Origin: Phycisphaerae bacterium
GTDB lineage: Bacteria; Planctomycetota; Phycisphaerae; Sedimentisphaerales; Anaerobacaceae
DNA: 64,000 bases
NCBI GenBank assembly: GCA_012744475.1
Contig: JAAYBV010000055.1
Span: 62,001-126,000, forward strand
Reading direction: 5' to 3'
Shown here: positions 479 through 14,570 of the stretch, in pieces
Numbering within the stretch: the stretch's first letter is position 1
How the letters are laid out: every line of letters begins with the position of its first letter
Notes under the pieces: model-generated
Database searches by the model: none
Seen by the model: only the letters and a program-made list of their open reading frames with translations
Told to the model about the DNA's origin: nothing
Made by a program: the position numbers and the translations under genes

Positions 479-3400
479 TCAAAGAGGCTGCTCGGCAACA
501 ATCTCGATCCCACAGAGGATCGTTTCGCTGCAGGCGTCAGTCGGCGTCAGCGAGATGGTCACGAAGTCAGACGTTTGAATCCCCTTGAACGTCCTGACGA
601 TCCCCACGTTGGGAGACCCGGCCTCGGCGACAATGTCAAAATCCTCCAGCACGGTCTGTCCGTTCAGGGCAACATCGAACCGCCGCTCTCCCGCCTTCTT
701 GTTTTCGGGCTCCATGAAGTGCAGATGAACCGTGTAGCCGGCTGGTGGGCCAAGACCCACTCCGCGTGGCTCACCCTGCGACCCTGACATCCTGACCTGA
801 ACAGATCGCAGGCCCTTCGCCCCCGAGGCTTCGACCCATGAGATATCGCTGCGTCGCAGGCGCGACGAGTGGCGGCGGAACCATGACAGTTCCTCCGGCG
901 CCACAGCCATGTCCAGTTCGGCAGAACTCCCTCCGACAATTGGATACTCCAGCCAGAGCGTTCCATTCTCGGCTCGGCGGTCGCCCGGCGCACCGAGGTT
1001 GATGCCGACGCTCTGAATGGGGGCATCGCTCGGCTCGACTTTGCTGAATGTCCACATTTCCACGTCCGGCATGTGGACCATCGCCAGCGAGGTCTGGTTC
1101 TGGTAGCTGCAAGTGCACGTGCTCGTATAGTCCGGCGCATTGAGAACACCGTTGGCGACGATCAGATTGGATGTGCATCCCGATCGGAACCCGCCGAAAT
1201 TGCCGGTCCCCCCGTCATTGGTGAGGTCGTAATAACCTGCCGCAGCAGAGCGGAACGTCAGGAGGTTCTCGCTGGCAATCGCTGTGTTGCAGCCGTGGTT
1301 TCGCGTGTAACGCCAGGGTATCGGCTCTCCCGTCAGAGGATGCGGATACGTCCGCCGGCGGCCCGTCAGAAGATCGTAGGCGCTCCCCTGAGTCAAGACG
1401 GTGCCCCCGCGCAACATGCAGGGCCCGGAGTAATCCGTCCTCTCGTCCCAGAGAACCTCGCCCGTCCGGGCCCGAAAGGCCGCCATCCGGTCGCCGGGCT
1501 CCCAGAGCATATCGCCGGATTTGCGATAGGCCTGCACCAGAACGCCGAACGGCTCGGAGAAGCTCAGCCAAGTTCCAAAGGCGCTGTCGCGGTTGTCCCA
1601 GACGACCCGGCCCGTGCGAAGGTCCATCGCCAGGAGCCGGCTCGTCTGACCGACCTCGGCGCCCTCGCGCGCATTTCGCTTCACATATGGAGGCACCGTG
1701 TCGAGACAGAAGACCATGCCGCCACCGGCGGCAATCCCGTTATGGATGAACCCATGGTCCGCCTCCACGCTCCACAGGACCTTTCCGTCGTAGCGGTTCA
1801 TCACTATCAGGGTCCTGCTGGCGCTCCAATCGACAAATGGAGCGGCCGCATCGGGTTTCTCGCCGGGAGGCTTGAGCAAAGGCGAATGCCGGACGAAATT
1901 CGCTCCGGCGATGAGATAGTCCTCGCAGACCCCGATGTAGGCCCAGCGTCGCGACCCCTGGTCTTCCCCGGCAGGCAATGAGAACACCTGTTGGGTCCGC
2001 CCGGTGGCCGGGTCCAGGACGTGACAGGCGTCTTCCTGAACGACATAGATCCGGTCGGCCGTGGCGACGAAATTCGTGCCCCTGGCGTTGGCCCCGGGAA
2101 TGTGGCCCTGGCCGTAGCCGAGGTAACGAAAGTCATGCTTGTAAGACGCGTCGTAGTATTCGCCGAAGGTCGACGCTGTGAGCGGCTTCTTCCACAAGAC
2201 CCGGCCCGTGTAGACATCCCGCGCACTGAACGAATCGATCCCCTGGATGAACAGCCTTCCCCCGACGACCTGCTCGGGCGGGCCATGTCCGTGCCTGGGC
2301 AGAACGTCACCGAATCCCGCTTCCTCCCCAAACCACAGTATACCCAGCGGAAGCCGGAGCTGGTCCTTCGAGCAGACGGTGTTGGCGACATCGCCGTACT
2401 GGTGCGTCCAGTCGGCAGAACCCGGCACGGGTCCGGTGCGCTGGATGACAACGGCGCCTTTGGCAGCGTCCACCCTGAAACCTGGAAGCTCCACGTTGGC
2501 AAGCCGGCTGCATATGGCCAGTTGCTGCTCCTTGCCCGCTGCGATCCAAGCCACCCCGCTGTAGGGCCGAAGCAGTTCGCACATCGCGTCAATGCGGCGC
2601 GCATTCCCCTCGATCCCGGCGGCTTTGAGATTCTCCACCACGACCAGTGAAGCGATGTACGGCGGCAGATCGGCGAAATCCACATCGGCCTGCAGAATGG
2701 AGACGCGCGATCCATAGAGGCCCACGCCATCCAGCCTCTTTCGCAACGAGGCCACCTTCTCGGCATCCGGCTCGACGGCGATCACGTGCATCTGCGACTG
2801 ACGCAGGAGTTCCGTGAGCAGGCGGCCGTTGCCAACCCCGAGCCACAGGCAGTACCCCTTCGCATCCACGCCTTGCGCGAGGATCTCCTTGACCCGTCCG
2901 GACTCGCTGCGAGGAGCCGGCCTCAGGCTATGGGCAATGCTCATGCGGCGAACGGGAGACCTTCTTGCGGCGCCGAAGCAATACAAGTGCCCGTCCTGCG
3001 TGATCACGAAGAGCTTCCCATCGCCGGCGACCATGTTCCACACGCGCCCGTGCACCCTGGCTCGCCAGACCGTCCGTGCCGGTTTGTCCCCCTCGGGCGC
3101 CTCAATGGCGGCGATCAGCCCCTCGTCGCTGCTGCCGTACAACCGACTGCCCGCCTTGATATGGATCTGATCGAGGGCCGGCTCGGTCTGCACCTTCCAC
3201 ACCGGTTGGGCGGACAGTCGCGTTTTGGTCTTCTTGTCCTTGGGATCGACCGTCTGTTCCTCCGCCAGCGTAGCGCCCACGATCTCGCCGGTCGCTCCGA
3301 CTCCCGCGACCGCATCGCCATCCATCACATCGGCCGCGATAGGCCCGAGGGCCAGACCATCGGAAAGCCTGTACGCCACGGCGTTATTGAAGTACCAGTC

Positions 3401-4333
3401 CTTCCAGATCGACGCCCCGTAGCCACCGACGTGCTTGCCGTAGCTGCGGTCGGCCAGGGGATAGTACAACAACTCGCCAGTAGCGCAATCGAAGCACGCC
3501 GGGGTGGTTCGGCTCGTCACCAGCAGCTTGTTCCCATCCGACGCCAGGTATCCTTGCGGCGCCACGCCCGCAAACGCGGGGCTGTTGTGCTGCTGCAGAA
3601 TGTAGATCGAGCCGGTGCCGCTGTTCTCCCAAATCACGCGGCCCGTCACGGCATCGAGTGCGTAGATGAACACCCCCATGAACGGCCAGATGCCGGCGGA
3701 GCAGTAGATCCTGCCGTCGCGCAGCACCGGCCCGCCACGTGCCGGCCACGCCGATATGAGCCTGCCATTGCCCAGGACCCTGCGGGTCGATGGCGCCAGG
3801 CGGGATCTCCAGAGCAGCGCGCCATCCCTGGCCGCCAGGCAGTAAAGACAACCGTCGTCGCTGGCGAAGTACACGCGGCCCTGCCATGCGATCGGCGCAA
3901 AACGGATCGGCCCATCGCAGAAGAATTGCCAATTCTGCCTGCCGGTTTCCGTGTCGTAGGCCTCGATCTTGTCACTGACCATCGATGGCACGAAGATCTG
4001 GTCGCCCATGACGACCGGCTCATAGGACCGGTCGAACTGGAGCTTGTACTGCTCCTCGCGCCATGCGGGGGCGGGCTTTGGCAGTCGCCGGATCCATTGA
4101 AGACGCAGATCGACCGGCAACGAGATGGGCGAGGCGCTACTGCGGCTGGCGTCGTACCGCCACATGGGCCAGTCGGCGGCGCTGCGCCGAAGACCGTCCA
4201 CGGGCCATCTCCACCAGTTGGCGAGGATCGACGTAAGAGTCAGACAGACAGCCGCCACGGGGACAAAGACGAGGACATGCCCGGCGACCTTCAGATGCCT
4301 TTTGCGGTCGCCGGTGTCCAGCGGTGCGAGCAT
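479..4333 (-). CDS. Exported double beta-propeller protein with internal methyltransferase-like domain and malectin-like tail
   Basis: A 1,284-residue protein. Residues 15-40 form one hydrophobic segment (anchor or uncleaved signal). A PQQ-type propeller spans about 50-455, starting at DWPMWRYD and showing repeats such as DGCLYCLAARDGALLW. A class I methyltransferase-like domain follows (about 475-635; loop WLGVGNG, the least degraded of the paralogues). A second propeller (640-1120) begins DWTHQYGDVANT. The tail from about 1190 resembles a malectin/carbohydrate-binding sandwich (FDVALNGQTVLEDFDI). A conserved CTCS motif closes propeller two. No PQQ-enzyme residues can be assigned, so a structural or ligand-binding role is more likely than dehydrogenase activity. 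The start overlaps the upstream paralogue by 43 bases, with GGAG placed before the ATG, implying translational coupling. Domain calls are from motif reading only. Confidence 0.85.
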   Translation of the reverse strand: MLAPLDTGDRKRHLKVAGHVLVFVPVAAVCLTLTSILANWWRWPVDGLRRSAADWPMWRYDASRSSASPISLPVDLRLQWIRRLPKPAPAWREEQYKLQFDRSYEPVVMGDQIFVPSMVSDKIEAYDTETGRQNWQFFCDGPIRFAPIAWQGRVYFASDDGCLYCLAARDGALLWRSRLAPSTRRVLGNGRLISAWPARGGPVLRDGRIYCSAGIWPFMGVFIYALDAVTGRVIWENSGTGSIYILQQHNSPAFAGVAPQGYLASDGNKLLVTSRTTPACFDCATGELLYYPLADRSYGKHVGGYGASIWKDWYFNNAVAYRLSDGLALGPIAADVMDGDAVAGVGATGEIVGATLAEEQTVDPKDKKTKTRLSAQPVWKVQTEPALDQIHIKAGSRLYGSSDEGLIAAIEAPEGDKPARTVWRARVHGRVWNMVAGDGKLFVITQDGHLYCFGAARRSPVRRMSIAHSLRPAPRSESGRVKEILAQGVDAKGYCLWLGVGNGRLLTELLRQSQMHVIAVEPDAEKVASLRKRLDGVGLYGSRVSILQADVDFADLPPYIASLVVVENLKAAGIEGNARRIDAMCELLRPYSGVAWIAAGKEQQLAICSRLANVELPGFRVDAAKGAVVIQRTGPVPGSADWTHQYGDVANTVCSKDQLRLPLGILWFGEEAGFGDVLPRHGHGPPEQVVGGRLFIQGIDSFSARDVYTGRVLWKKPLTASTFGEYYDASYKHDFRYLGYGQGHIPGANARGTNFVATADRIYVVQEDACHVLDPATGRTQQVFSLPAGEDQGSRRWAYIGVCEDYLIAGANFVRHSPLLKPPGEKPDAAAPFVDWSASRTLIVMNRYDGKVLWSVEADHGFIHNGIAAGGGMVFCLDTVPPYVKRNAREGAEVGQTSRLLAMDLRTGRVVWDNRDSAFGTWLSFSEPFGVLVQAYRKSGDMLWEPGDRMAAFRARTGEVLWDERTDYSGPCMLRGGTVLTQGSAYDLLTGRRRTYPHPLTGEPIPWRYTRNHGCNTAIASENLLTFRSAAAGYYDLTNDGGTGNFGGFRSGCTSNLIVANGVLNAPDYTSTCTCSYQNQTSLAMVHMPDVEMWTFSKVEPSDAPIQSVGINLGAPGDRRAENGTLWLEYPIVGGSSAELDMAVAPEELSWFRRHSSRLRRSDISWVEASGAKGLRSVQVRMSGSQGEPRGVGLGPPAGYTVHLHFMEPENKKAGERRFDVALNGQTVLEDFDIVAEAGSPNVGIVRTFKGIQTSDFVTISLTPTDACSETILCGIEIVAEQPL

Positions 4334-7300
4334 ACAATCTCCACGAAGTTGATTACGGGCGCCTCCGACTCGCCGGACGTCCTGGTCCTGGGGACCAGTT
4401 CCAGGACGAGCGTGTCATCGACGGCAATGTCCGGGAAGTCCCGGATGACGGCTCTATCGACGCCGCCGGCAAGCTGGGCGATGTCGAAGGTTTCACAAAC
4501 AGTCCGACCCTGGAGTTTGATCCCGAATACCCGCTGACCGGGTCTGTCGCCCTCGCGGGCCCGGAATCCGAGGCGGACCGTGTACAGGGTCGGGACATGG
4601 CCTGCCTGGCCATCGAGCAACGGGATCTCGCACCGGCGCAACCCCAGACACCCGGAAGTGAAGAGCCAGGGTTTCTCCGTCCCTTCGACGGTGATCCCTC
4701 TGAAGTCCTGACAGAAATACCCCATCTCCTCGAGGATTTCCTCCTTCAGATCGAACTTGATGCCGTAGTTGACGAAATGGTTCTGGGTATATACGGTCCG
4801 GGGGTTGGGGTAAGCCAGCCACAACGTGCCGTCGTCATCCTTCATATCCGCCGGCGCGCCGAAGTTGATGGCGAGGTGTTTGACGGGCCGTTCATACGTG
4901 CCCGGCACGACCTGGCCCTTCGTGTCCAGTTCGGTATGGTTGATGAACACGGTCCAGGGCTGAGCCCTTTGCGGCTTATTCACCAGGGCAAACGAACCAC
5001 GAAGCGGGAAGGAGCACGTGCAGCCCACGCTCGCTTCCGGAACCAGCACCAGACCGTTGGCCGGGATCATGTTGATCCAGCACCCGGGGCGAATGCCGCC
5101 GAAGATGGCGACGCCGGCGTCGCGCGCCAGATCGTAGATCGCCGTGCTCGACGAACGGTAGAACAGGGCGCTCGCCGAGGCGCTGGTGATCGCGCAGGTA
5201 TGTCCCGGACGGAGGAACTCCCACGGCACTTCCTTCTCCGAGATCGGATCGATACGCGACAGGATCTGGCCCGTGCGCAGATCGCACATCCTCGGCTCGA
5301 TGACAATCCGCTCGCCGATGATCACGGGCCGCGTGCGATAGTTGACCGGACGCGACCACAGGATCGCGCCGCTCGATGCCGACATGGCCACGATCCGGCG
5401 GTAGGTGAGCTGGCTCTCTCTGAATCGGTAGGCGTCGTGATTGCCGACGCAGCCGAAGAACAGCAGGACATCGTCCTGGCAGGCCGAGCCCATGGCGTCG
5501 CCGCAGCAACCGGTGAAGTCTACGGCTCGTTCCCACAGCTTCTTGCCGCTCTGGGCGTCCAGGGCCACCACGAGCCTCGTATCCGACGACTTATAGCCCT
5601 CGGTCCTCTTCATTTCCTCCGTCTGTTCGTACACTCCCTGCCGTATCAGCGTTCGCCGCTCATCAAGGGCTTGTTCTGCCAGCGCATCGGTGACAACGCT
5701 CTCGGCGAAGAAGACCTTTCCACCTGCGATGGAAAGGGTCAGATTCGCGATCCGCCTGCCCGAATAGGTCCAACGCACCGCTCCGGTGTTCGGGTCGAGG
5801 GCAAAAACCATGTCGCCCGTCATCATCCGGTCGGTCACCGAGCCCTTGGCCGGGCTGTAGTTCTCCCAGGCCGGGTAATTGGCCATGGGAAACCATTTGG
5901 CGTTCGACCTGATGTATGCCCGGAGCGTGTCGTCATCGGGATCGGCAAACTTAGCCCTGAGTTCCGTGGCATACGGCTGCTTCAAGGGCTCGGCCCGGAT
6001 GCCAAACAAGGTGCTCTGATCCGTCGAGACGCAGCCCCAGCGGTAGCTTCCGCTGCTCCCTCCCGGCAGGTCATACACCCGAACAGTCTCGCCGGTGGCC
6101 GGAGCGAGACCGACGCACCGATCATAGGCCGCCACATACAGGGCGTCCTTCGTCAGGGCCAGGTTGCCCCCGTCGACGTCGACCCGCGCCCGCACCGCAC
6201 CCGGAATCCGGCGTTCCCATAGAGGCGTCCCGTTGTAGGCGTCCAGGGCCAGGATCCGTTCCTCTCCCTGGATGAACAGACGGCCATCCATCGCGACAGG
6301 ACTCTGGGCCTTTGCGTGTCTCTCCACCATCGCCAGCGGACCCGGCTCGCCGAACCAGAGCACGCCAAGGGGCCCCTTGGCCATCCTGTCAGGAGAACAG
6401 GCCGTGTTCTGCGGATTGCCGTACTGCTGAGTCCATCCCGCGGTCCCTTCGAGTGACGGACGTGTGAACGTGCGCCACTGGAGACCGCCATTGCCGTCAG
6501 GCGTGGCCCCAACGGCGGTTCCTCCACCAGGCCTCAGGACGCGCTCCACTTGTTCCCGCGTCACCTCCGCCGTGCCGGTGGTCAACAGGCCGTCGGAGAC
6601 AACCAGATTGGCGAAGTAGGGGGGCAGGGAATCGATGTCCCACGGCTCCACGACCACCCGCGTGCCAAGCAGCCCGACCGACAGCAGTCTCTGGCGGGCG
6701 ATGCGCAGTTTGGCTGGATCCTCTTCGAGGCCGACGATCTGAAGATCGGTGATCCGGCTCAACTCATAGGCAAGCTGACCCGTGTTGGCGTCCAGAATGA
6801 GACAGTAACCTTTCGCCGTGTTGCTCCGGTCCACGATCTGGCGAGCAACCTCGCGGTACAGGTCGCCCTGCGGGTGATCGCGAAAGGCATTCGGATCGTG
6901 CGCACCACGTGTCCCTTCCGACGCGGTGCGTCTGGTGGCTGCGAAACAGTGTATCCTGCCCTCCTCCGTACTGACAATCAGAGAGCCGCTGCCGGCGGCC
7001 AGACTCACGGCGTTTCCGGCCAGGTTCGACTGCCAAACTCTCCGGCCGGTCTGGACGTCCACGCCCAAGACCTGGTTCAAGCCGCCGACAAAAAGCGTTT
7101 CGCCCGCCAGGATCAGAGAACGGCACTGCGGAACGGGCAGATACCATGTGTGGCAGGAATCGCGAAGCTGCCGCTCCGCCGCCAGGCGCCCGGCCGTGAG
7201 GCGGCCGATCTCATCGATCCTGTCGTGGATTCGGGTCTGTTGCTCAGCCCCCGCCTTCTGGACATCTTCTCGCAGCTTGGCAAGCTCTTGTCCCAGCGCT

Positions 7301-8406
7301 TCACGCGCCTCCGTGGAGGCAGCGACCTTCTGCCGCGCTTCGGCGTGCGCGTCGCGGTCGATGGCGTACAAACCGGCGGGCGTCAGAACGTACGCGAAGT
7401 TGCCCCGGACCACCATATCCAGTCCGGGGAACCAGGCGAACACGTCTCCTTTGCTCTGGCCGGTCTTTGAATCGTATGCGACCTTGTGAGGCGTCCCGGA
7501 TCGGTCTACCCCGGCAATGAGTTCATCACCGGCCAGCAGAGACCAGGTTCCGCCCTGCTTGCCCCCGGGAAAGGCCCAGAACAGAAACTGGCCGCTCCGT
7601 CGACTGAAGGCGGCGGGCATCGCGCGGCCTGCAGGAACGTATAGAGTCTCGTCGGAAGCCAGCAGATACCCGTGGGGAGATATGCCGCCGTAGCTCAGCT
7701 CGTGGGCGCGATCACCAATCGTGTCGTTCTTCCACACAAACGAACCGTCAGCGGCATTGAGGGCGCAGATGTAGATCCCCTCGTAGGGAAATACTCCGGC
7801 GCCGCAGTAGACCACACCCCGGTCTACCAGCACGCTCGTGCGGATCGGCCAGAGGGAGATCATCCGCCCGTTGCCAAGGACTTTCTCGTCGCTCGGACCC
7901 GGCCGCTGCCGCCAGATCAGCGATCCATCGACCGCACTGAGGCAATAGACATAGCCGTCGTCCGACCCGGCGTAGACACGACCCTCGTGAACGGCCGGGG
8001 CGAAACGGACCGGGCCTTCGGTGAAGTAGCTCCAGCACACCGCCCCCGAAGCGACATCAATCGCGCAGAGTTCATCCGTCACGGAGGACCCGAAGAACGC
8101 GCGACCATCGGCCATCGCCACGTGAAAGGCGCTGTCCGCGTGCATGCGGGGCATTTCCTCCGACGGTGCGGGCCAGGCAGGTTTGGGTGGATGCGCGGGG
8201 GTGTAGGTCCACTGAAGCGAGAGCTCGGCCGGCAGGCTCTCGGCGCCCACTCCGCTGCGAGCGGCGTCACACCGGTATGTCGGCCAGTCGGCCGCTGCGG
8301 CCACGCCTCCCATACCATGCGTGAATGCACAGCAAAGGGCTGTTGCAGCAAAACACAGGAAATCTGTCCTGAATCGAAACCGGATGACTGGAAGCTGTCG
8401 GCTCAT
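4291..8406 (-). CDS. Secreted double beta-propeller protein with degenerate methyltransferase-like domain
   Basis: A 1,371-residue paralogue of the downstream gene. The ATG at 8406 is chosen over a longer frame because GGGGAGG precedes it and a signal peptide follows (cleavage near VAAAA-D). Propeller one begins DWPTYRCD at residue 40 and is interrupted at about 350-415 by a charged helical hairpin. The methyltransferase-like domain (about 505-655) has ILDANTG where a SAM-binding loop would carry glycines, so it is probably not catalytic. Propeller two begins WTQQYGNPQNT near 658. Conserved cysteines include a GCC triplet in DFTGCCGDAMG and the CTCS motif. A malectin-like domain ends the protein (about 1275-1371). 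It is the first gene of a minus-strand series of three. Function is unknown; an extracytoplasmic scaffold or polysaccharide-binding role is inferred from the domains. Confidence 0.85.
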   Translation of the reverse strand: MSRQLPVIRFRFRTDFLCFAATALCCAFTHGMGGVAAAADWPTYRCDAARSGVGAESLPAELSLQWTYTPAHPPKPAWPAPSEEMPRMHADSAFHVAMADGRAFFGSSVTDELCAIDVASGAVCWSYFTEGPVRFAPAVHEGRVYAGSDDGYVYCLSAVDGSLIWRQRPGPSDEKVLGNGRMISLWPIRTSVLVDRGVVYCGAGVFPYEGIYICALNAADGSFVWKNDTIGDRAHELSYGGISPHGYLLASDETLYVPAGRAMPAAFSRRSGQFLFWAFPGGKQGGTWSLLAGDELIAGVDRSGTPHKVAYDSKTGQSKGDVFAWFPGLDMVVRGNFAYVLTPAGLYAIDRDAHAEARQKVAASTEAREALGQELAKLREDVQKAGAEQQTRIHDRIDEIGRLTAGRLAAERQLRDSCHTWYLPVPQCRSLILAGETLFVGGLNQVLGVDVQTGRRVWQSNLAGNAVSLAAGSGSLIVSTEEGRIHCFAATRRTASEGTRGAHDPNAFRDHPQGDLYREVARQIVDRSNTAKGYCLILDANTGQLAYELSRITDLQIVGLEEDPAKLRIARQRLLSVGLLGTRVVVEPWDIDSLPPYFANLVVSDGLLTTGTAEVTREQVERVLRPGGGTAVGATPDGNGGLQWRTFTRPSLEGTAGWTQQYGNPQNTACSPDRMAKGPLGVLWFGEPGPLAMVERHAKAQSPVAMDGRLFIQGEERILALDAYNGTPLWERRIPGAVRARVDVDGGNLALTKDALYVAAYDRCVGLAPATGETVRVYDLPGGSSGSYRWGCVSTDQSTLFGIRAEPLKQPYATELRAKFADPDDDTLRAYIRSNAKWFPMANYPAWENYSPAKGSVTDRMMTGDMVFALDPNTGAVRWTYSGRRIANLTLSIAGGKVFFAESVVTDALAEQALDERRTLIRQGVYEQTEEMKRTEGYKSSDTRLVVALDAQSGKKLWERAVDFTGCCGDAMGSACQDDVLLFFGCVGNHDAYRFRESQLTYRRIVAMSASSGAILWSRPVNYRTRPVIIGERIVIEPRMCDLRTGQILSRIDPISEKEVPWEFLRPGHTCAITSASASALFYRSSSTAIYDLARDAGVAIFGGIRPGCWINMIPANGLVLVPEASVGCTCSFPLRGSFALVNKPQRAQPWTVFINHTELDTKGQVVPGTYERPVKHLAINFGAPADMKDDDGTLWLAYPNPRTVYTQNHFVNYGIKFDLKEEILEEMGYFCQDFRGITVEGTEKPWLFTSGCLGLRRCEIPLLDGQAGHVPTLYTVRLGFRAREGDRPGQRVFGIKLQGRTVCETFDIAQLAGGVDRAVIRDFPDIAVDDTLVLELVPRTRTSGESEAPVINFVEIVCSHRWTPATAKGI

Positions 8407-8649
8407 GTGGTTTGCCTCCCCTGCAGGGGTTGAGGTCAGATCGGACAAACGCTGGATGTTCCGGTGTCTCTTACTCATCGCCAGACAATGGCACAGCCTT
8501 CTGCCCACACAGAGTATCAGACTTTGGCCCCAGACACAATGAACAGATTAGCCCGGAAACGAAGAGGGCTCCGGCACAAAGAGTCTCGCAGGATGGGCTT
8601 GAGCCCATGCGGCCGATACGGCACAGACCGATCCGGCAGGGGCGAATAA

Positions 8650-9429
8650 TTATCCGCCCCTACTCTTGCGAAACTCCACCCAGACGCCGTAGTTCACACC
8701 GGCCTCGTTGTCCAGCCTCGGCCGGATGACGCGATAGTCCTTTATCCTCAGCGATTTCATGATGGCATGCAGTTCCTGAGCCGTCGCCGCAACATCGTAC
8801 TGCGGCCCCTCGCCTCGTCCCCCGCGCACCGCCTGGGCCACCTCGAGCGGCAGATTCGCCGAGAGACCCCGCCCGATATAAGCCACACCGCCGGGTTTGA
8901 GAACCCGTCGAATCTCTCCAAACGCTGCGACCTTGTCGCCCCACAACCAGAATGAGCCTCGCGAGACGATCACGTCCGCATAGTCATCTCGAAACGGCAG
9001 GGCTTGGGCATCGGCTTGGATGGCGCTGACACGGCCGCCACAGCCATGTTCCTCTGCTCGTTGCAGGAAAAAGGGGAAGAAGTGTGGATTGATATCGGCA
9101 TTGATCCAGTGCATCTCCGTCCGTTTGCACAATTCAATGACCAGCGTCCCCGGCCCACTGCCCAGATCAATCCCAATCCCGGTCTTGCCGCCAAGGTCCA
9201 GGTCGTCCACGAGTTGCTCTGCCAGAGGACCATACACCGGCGCCAGCCGCCCCTCGCTCGACCGGATCATCCGAAGGGCATCCTCTCGGGAGTACTCTTT
9301 CGGGGCTTCTGCCACCCGGCCATCGTTCGAGACGCGAGGACCGGCCCCCCCGCATCCGACGAGCAACGTCAACGCCGCCAGCACGATGCAAAACCGGCCT
9401 GCGCCCGGACCCTGAGGAGCCTTTGTCAT
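8650..9429 (-). CDS. Lipoprotein with intact SAM-dependent methyltransferase domain
   Basis: A 259-residue protein. The N-terminus is a lipoprotein signal: a hydrophobic run ending LLVGC, so the mature protein should be lipid-anchored outside the cytoplasm. The rest is a Methyltransf_11/UbiE-like domain: motif I IDLGSGPGTL, an acidic motif NADINP, FRDDYADVIVSRGS, and VLKPGGVAYI. Unlike the propeller-fused relatives, all class I landmarks are present. This is odd, because SAM is not known to be available in the periplasm. Either the lipobox is misread (for example a true start further in), or the domain binds another ligand. The start is weakly supported: GGATGG lies about ten bases upstream of the ATG. 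It lies upstream of the propeller genes on the same strand and diverges from the pseudopilin at 9780. Confidence 0.8.
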   Translation of the reverse strand: MTKAPQGPGAGRFCIVLAALTLLVGCGGAGPRVSNDGRVAEAPKEYSREDALRMIRSSEGRLAPVYGPLAEQLVDDLDLGGKTGIGIDLGSGPGTLVIELCKRTEMHWINADINPHFFPFFLQRAEEHGCGGRVSAIQADAQALPFRDDYADVIVSRGSFWLWGDKVAAFGEIRRVLKPGGVAYIGRGLSANLPLEVAQAVRGGRGEGPQYDVAATAQELHAIMKSLRIKDYRVIRPRLDNEAGVNYGVWVEFRKSRGG

Positions 9430-9779: not shown

Positions 9780-10532
9780 ATGCGCAGACGTGGTCGAGTT
9801 GGGTTTGGGTTCACGCTGATCGAGTTGCTCGTCGTCATCGCCGTCATCGCCATCCTGATGGCGATTCTGGCACCCGCGCTGCGCAAGGCCCGATTCCACG
9901 CCAGCGAGGCCGCGTGCCTGAGCAATTTGCGGCAGATCAACCTGGCCCTGGTTACCTATGCCAACGACGATGACCGGACCCGCTATCCGCTGGAGCCGAC
10001 CGAACACAATCCGCATCCCGGCCTGCTGGAGAAGATCGGGGCGCAACGGAATGGGGTCCTGATGGAGGCGTTCTACTGTCCCCAGGCTCGCGACCTGGAA
10101 CAAAACGCCAACGATCCCAATGGCGGCACGCCCGTCGGCGGCACCGATTCGGTGATCGATACGCCCGAGAACCGCCAGCAAGGCAATATCACCTACATCT
10201 ACTGGAGCTTCCGGATGAACAAGCCGGGCCAGGCGGGAGGCACGTGGCGCGACACATCCCAATTCCTGCCCCGACAGCTCACACTCTCCGGCATCGAAGC
10301 GCACCGCGAATGGTTGGGCCAGACCAGCAAGACCGAGTTCCAGACGAATCGCTATCGGGCCTGCACGCTCGCCCAACCGGCGGAGACCTGGGTAATCTGC
10401 GATTTCTTCCGCAAGGGCGGAATCTTCCCACATGGTCGCCGAGGCGGTCCAAACGCCGGCGGCATCAACGTCAGTTACCTCGACGGTCACGCCGCTCGCG
10501 TGTACAAACAACCGAAAGACAGCTATCGTTAA
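9780..10532 (+). CDS. Type II secretion-like pseudopilin (prepilin leader, DUF1559-type)
   Basis: A 250-residue protein with a short basic leader followed by [17 protein letters not shown], the class III signal peptide processed by prepilin peptidase. The conserved Glu at position +5 of the mature N-terminus is present. The hydrophobic helix continues through [13 protein letters not shown]. The C-terminal half ends with [10 protein letters not shown], the DGH-type motif typical of planctomycete pseudopilin-like families. Such proteins are numerous in Planctomycetota and are thought to assemble with type II secretion or pilus-like machinery; individual roles are unknown. The gene leads a plus-strand group with the two propeller genes behind it (55-base gap), so it may help export or display them. 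Start supported by AGAGGG upstream. Confidence 0.88.
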
Positions 10533-10587: not shown

Positions 10588-12960
10588 ATGAGTACAGGCA
10601 CGGGAACTCTGCACTGCTTCGTGGCAGCGGCGGCACTATTCGTTCTGGCACCCGCGAGGGCTTGGGACCCGCTCGGTCCGACGGTTGCGCGCGGGCAGAA
10701 CCGCCCTTCGCCCGAGCCGGCTCCGATACAGGTGAGACTCGGGCCATACGTGCGGTACACTTCGCCGTCACAGGCAATCGTGTCGTGGTGGACCGAGGAA
10801 GAGGTCCCGTCCATTCTGGACTACGGCCTGGCCGGGCCGAGGGCAAAGTACTCCCCAAGCATCCAGTTGCTTGGACGCGATCGAGGCGAGTTAGAGAACC
10901 GCAAGCAGGACGAGCAGCCAAAGCGACACCATGCCCTCACGATCGAAGGATTGCAGCCGAACCGAGTCTATGCCTACCGTATCACTCTGCGAATGGGCGA
11001 TGTGGAGCAAAGCAGCGAGGTCTATGAGCTGGATACCGCCGTCAACTACAGCGTCCGTCCCCTGCCGACAGGTTTGGCCATAGCAGGCGACCCTGAACAC
11101 GCCGAGCAGATGCGCCGCATCGCCGGAGAGATCCTGCAGCGCAGCGACGCGACGAAGGGGTACTGTCTGGTGTGGGGCCTCGTGGACGGCGTGCTGGCCT
11201 ATGAGCTGGCCGCTGGAAGCGAATTGACCGTGATTGGGATCGATGACGATGCCGAGCGCATCGCACAAGTGCGCAACGACCTCTACCAGGCCGGCGTCTA
11301 TGGAACGCGGATCATGGTGCAGCACGTGGACGGCTTTGAAGACCTGCCCTACCCGGGCAACTTCGCGAATCTCATCGTTTCGGAACGCATGGTCGTCGAA
11401 GGACAGTGTGTGGGACCGGCCACCGAGACGTACCGCCTCCTGCGACCGCGAGGAAGCGCCGCCGTCCTGTCCTGCCCGTTGACGGCAGAAGCGCGTGAAC
11501 CTGCTGTGGAGACATGGCTCAATGCCGCTTCAATCGATCATGTCAGGCAGGAGACACCTGCCGGCCTGTTCTACATCGTGACCAAACCCATGCCGTCGGG
11601 CTGCGGCTCGTGGACCCACCAATACGGGGACGCGGGGAACACCGCCAACAGCCACGATGATCTCAACGGAGCCACGCAGACCGACCAGATGCAGGTGCAG
11701 TGGCTGGGCAGGCCGGGCGCCGATTTCGGCATGGACCGAAATCCCCGCATGCCCGCACCCCTGGCCGCCAACGGCAAGCTCTTCCACCAAGGAATGAACC
11801 GTATGGTTGCCATCGATGCGTACAATGGGACGATTCTCTGGTCGCTGGAAGTTCCGGCCATGCGGCGCGTCAACCTGCCACGAGATGCAAGCAACTGGTG
11901 CACCGATGATGCCGCCCTCTACGTGGCCGTCCAGGGCGACTGCTGGGTGATCGGACACTCCGACGGCGCGCTTCAGCAAGTCGTCGGACTGCCCGAGGGC
12001 TTCAACCGCCAGCAGTATGACTGGGGTTACGTCGCCCGCAAGGACAGTCTGCTTTTCGGCAGCGCCGTCAGGAAGAACACCAGCTATACCGAGTTCTGGG
12101 GCCATGACGCGTGGTATGACAGAACCGTCGGCGCCGGGACCGAGAAGGTCTGTAGCGATGCCCTGTTCGCCTACGATCTGGGGACCGGCCAGCCGGCGTG
12201 GACCCGACGCAACGGCGTCGTGATCAACACGACGATCGCTGTCGGGAAACAGGGTGTCGTTTTCGTCGAATCCCGGAACCCGGCCGTCCAAAGCTCGCCT
12301 ACGCGCCGGCTCAACGATTTGCCGTTGTGGTCCGATCAGTATCTCGTATGCCTCGACACGCAGACCGGTGAGCCCATCTGGGAGACCCCTCTCGACACCG
12401 CCGACGGAATCGTCGTGTTCTACCTCGCCTGCACGGATGACTCCGTCGTGATCGCTTCCTCCGGTGCAGGCAAGTACCACTTGTATCGGTTCGACTCCGA
12501 TACCGGCCGATTTCTCTGGCACGCCGAGCACAACTGGCCCGCCGACAATCACAGCGCCCATATGCAGCACCCCGTCGTCCTGACGGACCGGATCTTTCTG
12601 GAGCCGTGCGGCTATGGCCTCGCGACGGGCCGGCTTTTGACCTCTTCGATGAGTCCGCGCGAGGGTTGCGCCACGTACTGCGGCACGAACCACGCCCTGG
12701 TCCATCGGGGTCAGGCCCGATGCGTTGCGATGTGGGACTTCAACACCGGCCGCATCACGACCTGGCGGAACCTGCGTCCAAGCTGCTGGCTCAGCACGAT
12801 TGTCGGTGAGGGAATGATATTGTCGCCCGAAGGCGGCGGAGGGTGCAGTTGTGGCAACTGGCTGGAGACTTCAATGGCCTTCTCACCGCTGCAGGTCAGT
12901 ACTGCCCCCGCCAGAAGACCTTTGCCAACAGGCGGTGACGCGATCGAAAGTGGGCAATGA
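10588..12960 (+). CDS. Secreted Fn3-like / methyltransferase-like / beta-propeller protein
   Basis: A 790-residue protein with a signal peptide (cleavage near APARA-W). Residues 45-150 form a fibronectin-like sandwich of the kind found at the N-terminus of purple acid phosphatases (VRYTSPSQAIVSWWTE, then LQPNRVYAYRITL). No phosphatase domain follows. Residues 160-340 are the same methyltransferase-like fold as in the minus-strand paralogues; its loop reads VWGLVDG and is degenerate. One propeller follows from SWTHQYGDAGNT (about 341) to the conserved CSC motif near 754. There is no N-terminal propeller and no malectin-like tail. The missing first propeller is what the next gene encodes, so the pair looks like a split version of the larger proteins. 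AGGAAGGA precedes the ATG. Function is unknown. Confidence 0.85.
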   Translation: MSTGTGTLHCFVAAAALFVLAPARAWDPLGPTVARGQNRPSPEPAPIQVRLGPYVRYTSPSQAIVSWWTEEEVPSILDYGLAGPRAKYSPSIQLLGRDRGELENRKQDEQPKRHHALTIEGLQPNRVYAYRITLRMGDVEQSSEVYELDTAVNYSVRPLPTGLAIAGDPEHAEQMRRIAGEILQRSDATKGYCLVWGLVDGVLAYELAAGSELTVIGIDDDAERIAQVRNDLYQAGVYGTRIMVQHVDGFEDLPYPGNFANLIVSERMVVEGQCVGPATETYRLLRPRGSAAVLSCPLTAEAREPAVETWLNAASIDHVRQETPAGLFYIVTKPMPSGCGSWTHQYGDAGNTANSHDDLNGATQTDQMQVQWLGRPGADFGMDRNPRMPAPLAANGKLFHQGMNRMVAIDAYNGTILWSLEVPAMRRVNLPRDASNWCTDDAALYVAVQGDCWVIGHSDGALQQVVGLPEGFNRQQYDWGYVARKDSLLFGSAVRKNTSYTEFWGHDAWYDRTVGAGTEKVCSDALFAYDLGTGQPAWTRRNGVVINTTIAVGKQGVVFVESRNPAVQSSPTRRLNDLPLWSDQYLVCLDTQTGEPIWETPLDTADGIVVFYLACTDDSVVIASSGAGKYHLYRFDSDTGRFLWHAEHNWPADNHSAHMQHPVVLTDRIFLEPCGYGLATGRLLTSSMSPREGCATYCGTNHALVHRGQARCVAMWDFNTGRITTWRNLRPSCWLSTIVGEGMILSPEGGGGCSCGNWLETSMAFSPLQVSTAPARRPLPTGGDAIESGQ

Positions 12961-12971
12961 GGGAGGGCCGT

Positions 12972-14570
12972 ATGGGCTCACACATCTCCGTGATCAGTCT
13001 GAGCGTGGTCTGTCTGTTGATGATCGCATCGCCGGCGGCTCACGCCGAGGATTGGCCCACGTATCAGCACGACAATCGGCGAAGCGGCGTCACGGGCGAG
13101 CAACTGCAAATGCCCCTGCACAGAGCATGGGAGTACATCCCATGCGATCATCCGAGGACCGCGTGGAGTGGCCCGGCCAAGTGGGATTCCTATGCCGGCC
13201 TGGTCAACCTCAAGTCCATGCGCGACTTCGATCCCGTGTTCTACGTGACGGTCGCCGAGACGAGCGTCTTCTTCGGCAGTTCCATTGACAACGCGGTTCA
13301 CTGCCTCGACGCCGCCAGCGGCCGAGAGAAATGGGTGGCCTTCGCCAACGGCCCCGTCCGCCTGCCGCCGTCCTTGTACGACGGCAAGCTCTATTTCGGC
13401 GGCGATGACGGGTGTGTGTACTGCGTCCGCTGCGATTCCGGCCAGACCATCTGGCGCCATGAGGCAGCGCCCGGCGGCGCGCAGATCCCCATCGACGGCA
13501 GACTTGCGTCGCTCTGGCCGTGTCGCACCGGCGCCCTGGTGCAGGACTCCAGGGTCTACTTCGCGGCGTCATTGTTGCCCTGGCAGAAGACCTACCTGTG
13601 CGCACTGGATGCACAGACCGGAGCGTCAGACGGCCCAGGGTTGTACAAGAGACAACTGGAGCAGATGACGGCGCAGGGCCCGATGCTTGCCTCCGCCACC
13701 AGGCTCTACCTGTCGCAGGGACGCCAGGTGCCGCTGGTCTTCGAGCGCGCCACCGGCAGCATGGTGCAGAGCCTCGGCAGTTCCGGCTTCGGCGGCGTGT
13801 TCGGACTGCTGACCGAAGATTCGATATTCGTCCACGGACACGGCCAGAACCACCGTGCCGACGGCGAGCTGCGATTCTTCGGCGGCAGTAAAAACGATCT
13901 GCTCGTGACGTTCCCGCGCGCCACCACCCTCGTCATTCACAATGGTGTCATCTACCTGTACGCGGATGGATGGCTCCAGGCGTTCGACCGCGACAGTTAC
14001 GTCGAGCTCCAGTCCCGGATCGATCTGCTGCAAGCGAGTATACAGCAGTTGCAGGAACGCAGGAAGAAGCTCGCGCGCGACGCCAGTGACGTGCAACGCC
14101 GACAACTTGATGCAGAGATCGCCGCGGCGCAGGCGGAGATCCCTACGCTGCAAGCAGAGCTGTCCGCGTGCGTTCCGTGGCGTGTCGCGAGTGACTGCCC
14201 TCTGACCCTGATTCTGGCCGGTGACACGCTCTTCGCCGGGGGCGAGGGCAAGGTGGATGCCCACGAGGCTGCAACCGGTGAACGAATCTGGACCGCGCCG
14301 GTCGAAGGCAGAGCATACGGCCTGGCCGCCGCCGCAGGCTCGTTGTTCGTCAGCACCGATCTGGGGAGAATCGTCTGCTTCACTGCCCCGGAAATACGGG
14401 CCGGGACAACCCAAGGCCCCAGGCCCGCTCAGTGTGTTCTGCGTCGATGCAGCCAGCCGATGAGACCGGCCCAGACCATGCCGAGCACGATCGCACCGAC
14501 GACGGGGACAACGGCTGACACCTCTGTGCTCTCCAGCGGGTCGAACGCGAGTGACCCCGACTGCGGATGA
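12972..14570 (+). CDS. Secreted single beta-propeller protein, 3' truncated relative to its paralogues
   Basis: A 532-residue product from the ATG at 12972, preferred over the ATG at 12957 because GAGGGAGG lies just before it and a signal peptide follows (ending PAAHA-E). The propeller begins DWPTYQHD like propeller one of the large paralogues and carries a long coiled-coil hairpin at about 341-400 (DLLQASIQQLQERRKKLARD). Homology ends at IVCFTAPE (about residue 473), just where the others continue into the methyltransferase-like domain. The last 60 codons have no family character and run antisense to the 3' part of the 14429-14923 gene. This looks like a recombination end that lost its own stop. 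It overlaps or abuts the preceding gene's stop and should be co-transcribed with it. Confidence 0.75.
   Translation: MGSHISVISLSVVCLLMIASPAAHAEDWPTYQHDNRRSGVTGEQLQMPLHRAWEYIPCDHPRTAWSGPAKWDSYAGLVNLKSMRDFDPVFYVTVAETSVFFGSSIDNAVHCLDAASGREKWVAFANGPVRLPPSLYDGKLYFGGDDGCVYCVRCDSGQTIWRHEAAPGGAQIPIDGRLASLWPCRTGALVQDSRVYFAASLLPWQKTYLCALDAQTGASDGPGLYKRQLEQMTAQGPMLASATRLYLSQGRQVPLVFERATGSMVQSLGSSGFGGVFGLLTEDSIFVHGHGQNHRADGELRFFGGSKNDLLVTFPRATTLVIHNGVIYLYADGWLQAFDRDSYVELQSRIDLLQASIQQLQERRKKLARDASDVQRRQLDAEIAAAQAEIPTLQAELSACVPWRVASDCPLTLILAGDTLFAGGEGKVDAHEAATGERIWTAPVEGRAYGLAAAAGSLFVSTDLGRIVCFTAPEIRAGTTQGPRPAQCVLRRCSQPMRPAQTMPSTIAPTTGTTADTSVLSSGSNASDPDCG

Follow-up and report, generated by a model that had tools for sequence, protein, structure and literature searches.

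A predicted planctomycete lipoprotein with a seemingly complete SAM-dependent methyltransferase domain, and its exported relatives in Phycisphaerae

To our knowledge, S-adenosylmethionine (SAM) is regarded in bacteria as a strictly cytoplasmic cofactor, and we know of none outside the cytoplasm. The UbiE/Coq5, BioC, ArsM and DVU_1556-type methyltransferases (Methyltransf_11/25) are cytoplasmic enzymes. The methyltransferases of COG4798 often bear signal peptides, and no paper naming COG4798 was found in the literature searched. Exported enzymes that depend on a cytoplasmically made cofactor are not without precedent: ApbE, a periplasmic lipoprotein flavin transferase, is one, though it differs from the protein described here in its fold and in using FAD. 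The closest solved relative of that protein is PDB 3dlc, MMP1179 of Methanococcus maripaludis, an archaeal protein annotated only as a putative SAM-dependent methyltransferase, whose crystal contains SAM according to the available part of the CouO paper (PMC5289526). Lipoproteins have been reported in a planctomycete, with no exported methyltransferase mentioned in the accessible portion of that report (PMC8567305). Our searches of the published literature found no pool of SAM outside the cytoplasm of bacteria, no exporter that would supply one, and no paper on a periplasmic SAM methyltransferase or on periplasmic SAM or methylation; judging from the excerpts available, the matches on exported SAM enzymes seem mostly to concern other meanings of 'SAM', together with a few enzymes secreted into hosts.

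The window analysed here, a 64,000-nucleotide stretch of a Phycisphaerae genome, encodes a protein (P0001) that combines a lipoprotein leader with such a methyltransferase domain:

8650..9429, minus strand: P0001, a predicted lipoprotein and putatively exported SAM-dependent methyltransferase of class I; open frame with ATG start, 259 aa
9352..9429, minus strand: signal segment, residues 1-26, whose last residue is the lipobox Cys26 (LVGC); from sequence, lipobox patterns and hydrophobicity
9148..9174, minus strand: motif I GIDLGSGPG, residues 86-94; D88, G90, G92 and G94 invariant in 22/22 exported enzymes

The translated frame begins MTKAPQGPGAGRFCIVLAALTLLVGC and carries GIDLGSGPGTL farther along. 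Its N-terminus, MTKAPQGPGAGR-FCIVLAALTL-LVGC, presents the positive n-region, the hydrophobic stretch (3.02 over 12 aa) and the lipobox cysteine near the N-terminus that are characteristic of bacterial lipoproteins, and behind Cys26 come a linker and then the methyltransferase domain with motif I. A chance origin of this leader appears unlikely, because three lipobox patterns of differing strictness (strict, PROSITE-type and lenient) all match it, and among the 29 other Methyltransf_25 proteins encoded in the genome L066 alone fits one or more of these patterns. A clear leader of any kind is found in three of those 29 controls (L066, L072 and L074), a count that leaves out L075, whose hydrophobic stretch (2.14) was read as internal to a larger protein. 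A signal peptidase II gene is present in the genome.

The domain itself looks complete. Pfam places Methyltransf_25 on residues 88-181 at 7.1e-17, with Methyltransf_11 at 9.5e-17, and the elements of a class I core, namely motif I and the acidic residues after strands 2 and 3, are all present. In the 22 exported enzymes D112 and D140 are as invariant as the four motif I residues, and nine further positions, picked from invariant columns, are identical in all 22. Thus the pairing of a lipobox with a complete motif I methyltransferase in one protein, which the first-pass annotation had proposed, is borne out by the leader patterns, the Pfam matches and the invariant pocket. The AlphaFold2 model (pLDDT 85.6, lowest in the leader) finds 3dlc as its first structural match, with Z 27.0 and an rmsd of 2.0 Å over 203 residues at 29% identity, and the next match follows at Z 19.1. 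By sequence, too, 3dlc is the best solved relative (145.4 bits, profile positions 31-226), in an alignment that begins just past the leader; the solved chain of 3dlc begins at the point that corresponds to the end of the exported family's leader. Profile and fold over the whole domain, and shared motifs including VSRGSxxFWED, thus assign P0001 to the MMP1179 subfamily. With UbiE/Coq5, BioC, ArsM and the DVU_1556-type enzymes P0001 shares the class I Rossmann core, but it scores far below their NCBIfam cut-offs (bits against cut-off: ArsM_AhpD_UU 41.2/510, DVU_1556 41.0/155, BioC 39.6/184.95, UbiE 36.9/378); no NCBIfam model reaches its cut-off on P0001, the best score being 41.2 bits and the lowest cut-off among the 16 listed being 155. 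With every NCBIfam score below its cut-off, no substrate was assigned by family name, and arsenite methylation, to which the weak ArsM matches might point, was rejected on scores that lie far below the cut-off.

Overall, a working periplasmic methyltransferase is the most likely reading of this sequence and its model, and we believe with reasonable, though by no means high, confidence in the fuller explanation, in which P0001 is a Sec-exported lipoprotein lipidated at Cys26 that binds SAM in the periplasm and methylates an envelope substrate linked to the neighbouring propeller proteins. The computed basis for this explanation comprises the leader and its conservation, the intact pocket, the fold, a TonB-receptor fusion in two relatives, and the gene cluster. 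Consider the course such a protein would take. Synthesised with a Sec signal, P0001 would be lipidated at Cys26 through the signal peptidase II route, and its lipid would then anchor it, facing the periplasm, to a membrane that is probably the outer membrane. There the mature domain would adopt the complete class I methyltransferase fold of the 3dlc (MMP1179) subfamily, would bind SAM present in the periplasm, and would methylate a cell-envelope substrate, most likely one that comes in from outside or is dealt with by the neighbouring exported propellers, whose own copies of the domain have lost the pocket.

We regard the fusion of the domain to TonB-dependent receptors as the strongest evidence for where the enzyme would reside. 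In L039 (5356-8343), a single 995-aa frame contains the methyltransferase domain, then a carboxypeptidase-regulatory-like domain and a TonB-dependent receptor plug; in L020 (1555-3224) the methyltransferase domain is joined directly and in frame to a receptor plug. They sit next to each other in the tree (98/68), and their alignment rows were trimmed to the methyltransferase part. L020 is a single 3.2 kb contig of a metagenome assembly, and its Latescibacterota label could be a binning error. N-terminal extensions of TonB-dependent receptors are periplasmic by established topology, and the enzyme is placed in the periplasm because these two copies head such a receptor.

These same fusions, and the separate TonB-receptor gene that lies upstream of the methyltransferase gene in L046, are also what one would expect if the protein were exported with its pocket kept but, instead of transferring methyl groups, served as a sensor, a scavenger or a binding platform for SAM, SAH or a similar ligand. 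Lysed neighbours would then be the source of the SAM, and the receptor fusion would reflect uptake. This reading gains from solute-binding proteins that adjoin the enzyme in L037, L038 and L044, from the decayed relatives of the domain borne by exported propellers, and from the fact that no source of periplasmic SAM is known. Against it, S156, R157, G158, W163, E172, R187 and W250, all outside the cofactor motifs, are invariant in 22/22 exported enzymes, a degree of constraint that would exceed the needs of cofactor binding. We consider a purely ligand-binding role unlikely, though it is the rival that survives best, and favour the working methyltransferase.

The neighbourhood of P0001 supplies its connection to the propellers:

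4291..8508, minus strand: propeller protein A, PQQ-like and predicted to be exported, which lies immediately downstream of P0001 (142 bp) and has a decayed methyltransferase domain embedded in it
6334..6906, minus strand: decayed methyltransferase stretch of propeller A, from alignment
479..4333, minus strand: propeller protein B, PQQ-like, likewise with a decayed methyltransferase domain embedded in it
2354..2956, minus strand: part of propeller B whose structure model has a methyltransferase-like fold
10588..12960, plus strand: propeller C, with N-terminal purple-acid-phosphatase-N-like domain, decayed methyltransferase domain (11080-11622) and propeller
12957..14570, plus strand: propeller protein D
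9780..10532, plus strand: pseudopilin-like protein, divergent in this window; in 11/22 loci a homologue is found no more than 0.5 kb from the methyltransferase

The earlier claim that P0001 stands beside propeller proteins with a decayed version of its own fold holds for A, B and C, one of them by modelling: the model of the domain in propeller B has a pLDDT of 80.6 and finds 3dlc as its best solved match (2.8e-9). No methyltransferase domain was detected in propeller D. The embedded domains, known from Phycisphaerae, resemble the exported enzyme in subfamily, in their best structural match and in being its gene neighbours, and differ from it in the large propeller attached and in the motifs, the motif I aspartate being lost in 13/13 and the SRG motif altered. 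Profile against profile, exported enzyme and propeller domain match at an hhalign probability of 98.5%, and under a profile built from 11 propeller domains the 22 exported enzymes reach 30.8-46.7 bits, against 13.4 for the best of the 29 other methyltransferases of the genome. Because of these scores and the hhalign match, we place both in one methyltransferase subfamily, as had been supposed.

It is a further step to make the lipoprotein enzyme the direct ancestor of the decayed domain, through capture of the adjacent gene. The closest kinship by profile score, the adjacency of the genes and the common best match to 3dlc would all suit such an origin, which is compatible with any of the functional readings. 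In the tree, however, the propeller domains form a clade of their own (97/93) outside the exported clade (100/99); neither is nested in the other, and P0001 does not fall within the propeller-domain clade. The tree does not establish an exclusive sister relation of the two clades, and the AU test does not reject one (p 0.293). Since the propeller domains branch outside the exported clade, the word 'ancestor' in the first-pass annotation finds no support, and we consider descent by gene capture improbable. The other role proposed there, that of an active partner of the propellers, is plausible: in 11/22 loci the methyltransferase has a propeller gene no more than 1.5 kb away, and chance proximity, estimated roughly from 39 PQQ_2 stretches in the 5.75 Mb genome of the window, would be a few per cent.

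These neighbourhood counts come from related loci, so that they are not independent, and from flanks of varying length, with some contigs stopping close by. The typical order is a propeller with an N-terminal decayed domain, the exported methyltransferase, and the pseudopilin; in four of the 11 loci with a pseudopilin-like gene only its N-terminal part matches. Some loci carry on past the pseudopilin with a half transporter resembling TauE and with solute-binding proteins, followed by an unnamed exported protein and another propeller, and L036 adds a LolCE-like permease (TIGR02212, 68.4 bits, cut-off 362.45) with an ABC ATPase. Each partner gene is missing from about half of the loci, and neither lies near the methyltransferase in L032, L033, L041, L042, L043, L046, L047 and others. 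In L020, a propeller B-like gene lies 26 bp upstream of the methyltransferase-receptor fusion. A conserved exported protein at L018:4840-6210 (with ...ACRYNVRETGFVDLG near its N-terminus and, by eye, a C-terminal membrane segment) has homologues that recur in the same cluster in L031, L034, L037, L044, L045 and L017; for the copy in L018, neither Pfam nor NCBIfam gives a match.

With start codons picked with the leader in mind, a hydrophobic segment precedes the methyltransferase domain in 28/28 distinct homologues with a readable N-terminus (12-residue mean at least 1.79), and in most of them a cysteine closes it. This set comprises the homologues minus repeats (L016 and L019, of L030 and L038; L086 and L089, of L017 and L018) and minus copies whose 5' end is missing (L021, L029 and L048), and it also omits L022, which matches over 38 residues only. 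The lipobox is less constant: the lenient pattern matches 19 of the 28, the PROSITE-type pattern nine and the strict pattern four, and several homologues that lack it resemble ordinary cleavable signal peptides. (For L041, whose alignment row begins at an internal residue, FMLFLFTGC..., the full start was used in this test.) Because the strict and PROSITE-type patterns match so few, lipidation is not family-wide. What the sequences indicate as the conserved trait of the family is export, with lipidation its commoner but not universal form.

In Escherichia coli, the residue after the lipidated cysteine bears on membrane sorting, and the absence of aspartate there favours the outer membrane. Since an aspartate directly after the cysteine occurs in 0/19 homologues with a lenient lipobox, an outer-membrane location is favoured by this rule. 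Between P0001 and its nearest relative (78% identity), amino-acid changes fall in 11/26 codons of the leader, 12/18 of the linker and 14/110 of the core, and the frame, the hydrophobicity and the cysteine of the leader are kept despite this fast change. Rapid change with hydrophobicity retained is usual in signal peptides.

The same alignments bear on whether P0001 is instead an ordinary cytoplasmic enzyme, either because translation starts downstream, at a GTG or at the common ATG before MIRSSEG, or because the segment does not direct export. That downstream ATG is indeed common in the family, and the distant relatives 3dlc and the planctomycete proteins L080 and L081 begin there or lack a leader; no close homologue starts past the hydrophobic segment. 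The downstream Met, however, is missing in L034, L038, L039, L020 and L046, the KYTEQxAL residues ahead of it are conserved, the upstream frame is open and hydrophobic throughout the 28, and two copies form the N-terminus of an outer-membrane receptor, all of which makes a cytoplasmic enzyme very improbable. We think it least probable of all that the segment is an uncleaved anchor (N-out) which keeps the enzyme at the inner membrane, on its cytoplasmic side, for although some leaders have no clear cleavage site and the charge is equal on both sides in 9/28, the n-side is the more positive in 18/28, favouring N-in, and the less positive in one, and the terminal cysteine and the receptor fusions argue against it as well.

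The exported copies form a single clade at 100/99, which is most simply read as one gain of an export signal by a cytoplasmic member of the 3dlc subfamily. The distribution of the gene is patchy. Close homologues occur in 22/89 genomes of the same family, mostly Phycisphaerae, in 13/99 genomes of relatives of the window, in 11/397 genomes of the class and in 2/392 of the phylum, its own genome included each time; a collection of named genomes yields seven homologous loci, again mostly from Phycisphaerae, with one labelled Latescibacterota. A phylum search with an alignment found relatives in 4/246 genomes, its own included, the others being distant relatives without a leader, and no plasmid-borne relatives were found in 72,556 records at 1e-10.

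P0001 is not the only methyltransferase of its genome with a leader. L066/L085, L072/L084 and L074/L083 are leader-bearing proteins that match the archaeal protein-lysine methyltransferase (aKMT) model NF041081 at 128-145 bits, below its cut-off of 200, and L072 matches PDB 5jwj at 134.7 bits. Like P0001, aKMT and these exported relatives are class I methyltransferases that carry export signals in this lineage, but they form a separate clade with the motif YDLGCGDG. (The group table of the tree tags L066, L072 and L074 as 'cytosolic' despite their leaders, which leaves the quoted clades unaffected.) aKMT-like relatives, which outside the genome of the window are L094-L121, occur in 21/298 genomes of the class, its own included; a stricter draw from the phylum found them in 1/59, namely that same genome. 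A leader is present in 20/25 distinct frames with a complete 5' end and absent in L106, L107, L108, L111 and L112. Because two unrelated methyltransferase families would be exported in one lineage, a periplasmic methyl donor becomes more likely than it would be with either family alone.

At its broadest, this suggests that Phycisphaerae routinely run SAM chemistry outside the cytoplasm, releasing SAM or an equivalent methyl donor to the periplasm for use by at least two unrelated families: the 3dlc-like set, clustered with propellers, a pseudopilin and in some loci a LolCE-like transporter, and in some copies forming the periplasmic head of a receptor of the TonB-dependent type, and the aKMT-like set. 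We offer this general picture tentatively, as a possibility that falls short of the expected case. In this context, a planctomycete that exports a seemingly complete SAM enzyme implies either that SAM leaves the cell interior or that the enzyme has been repurposed, and the pairing of a complete pocket with predicted export in every close relative examined turns extracytoplasmic SAM into a testable question. If such chemistry does occur, it would imply a SAM exporter or a scavenging route, and an envelope modification of a kind absent from the literature searched.

Two further arrangements were seen within the aKMT-like set. L097 (517 aa) and L103 (529 aa) each place three tandem aKMT-like domains behind a single signal peptide. 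The protein at L074:550-1929 has a signal peptide, then about 280 residues that by eye resemble an alkaline-phosphatase-type hydrolase, and then an aKMT-like domain; the methyltransferase is its sole Pfam match.
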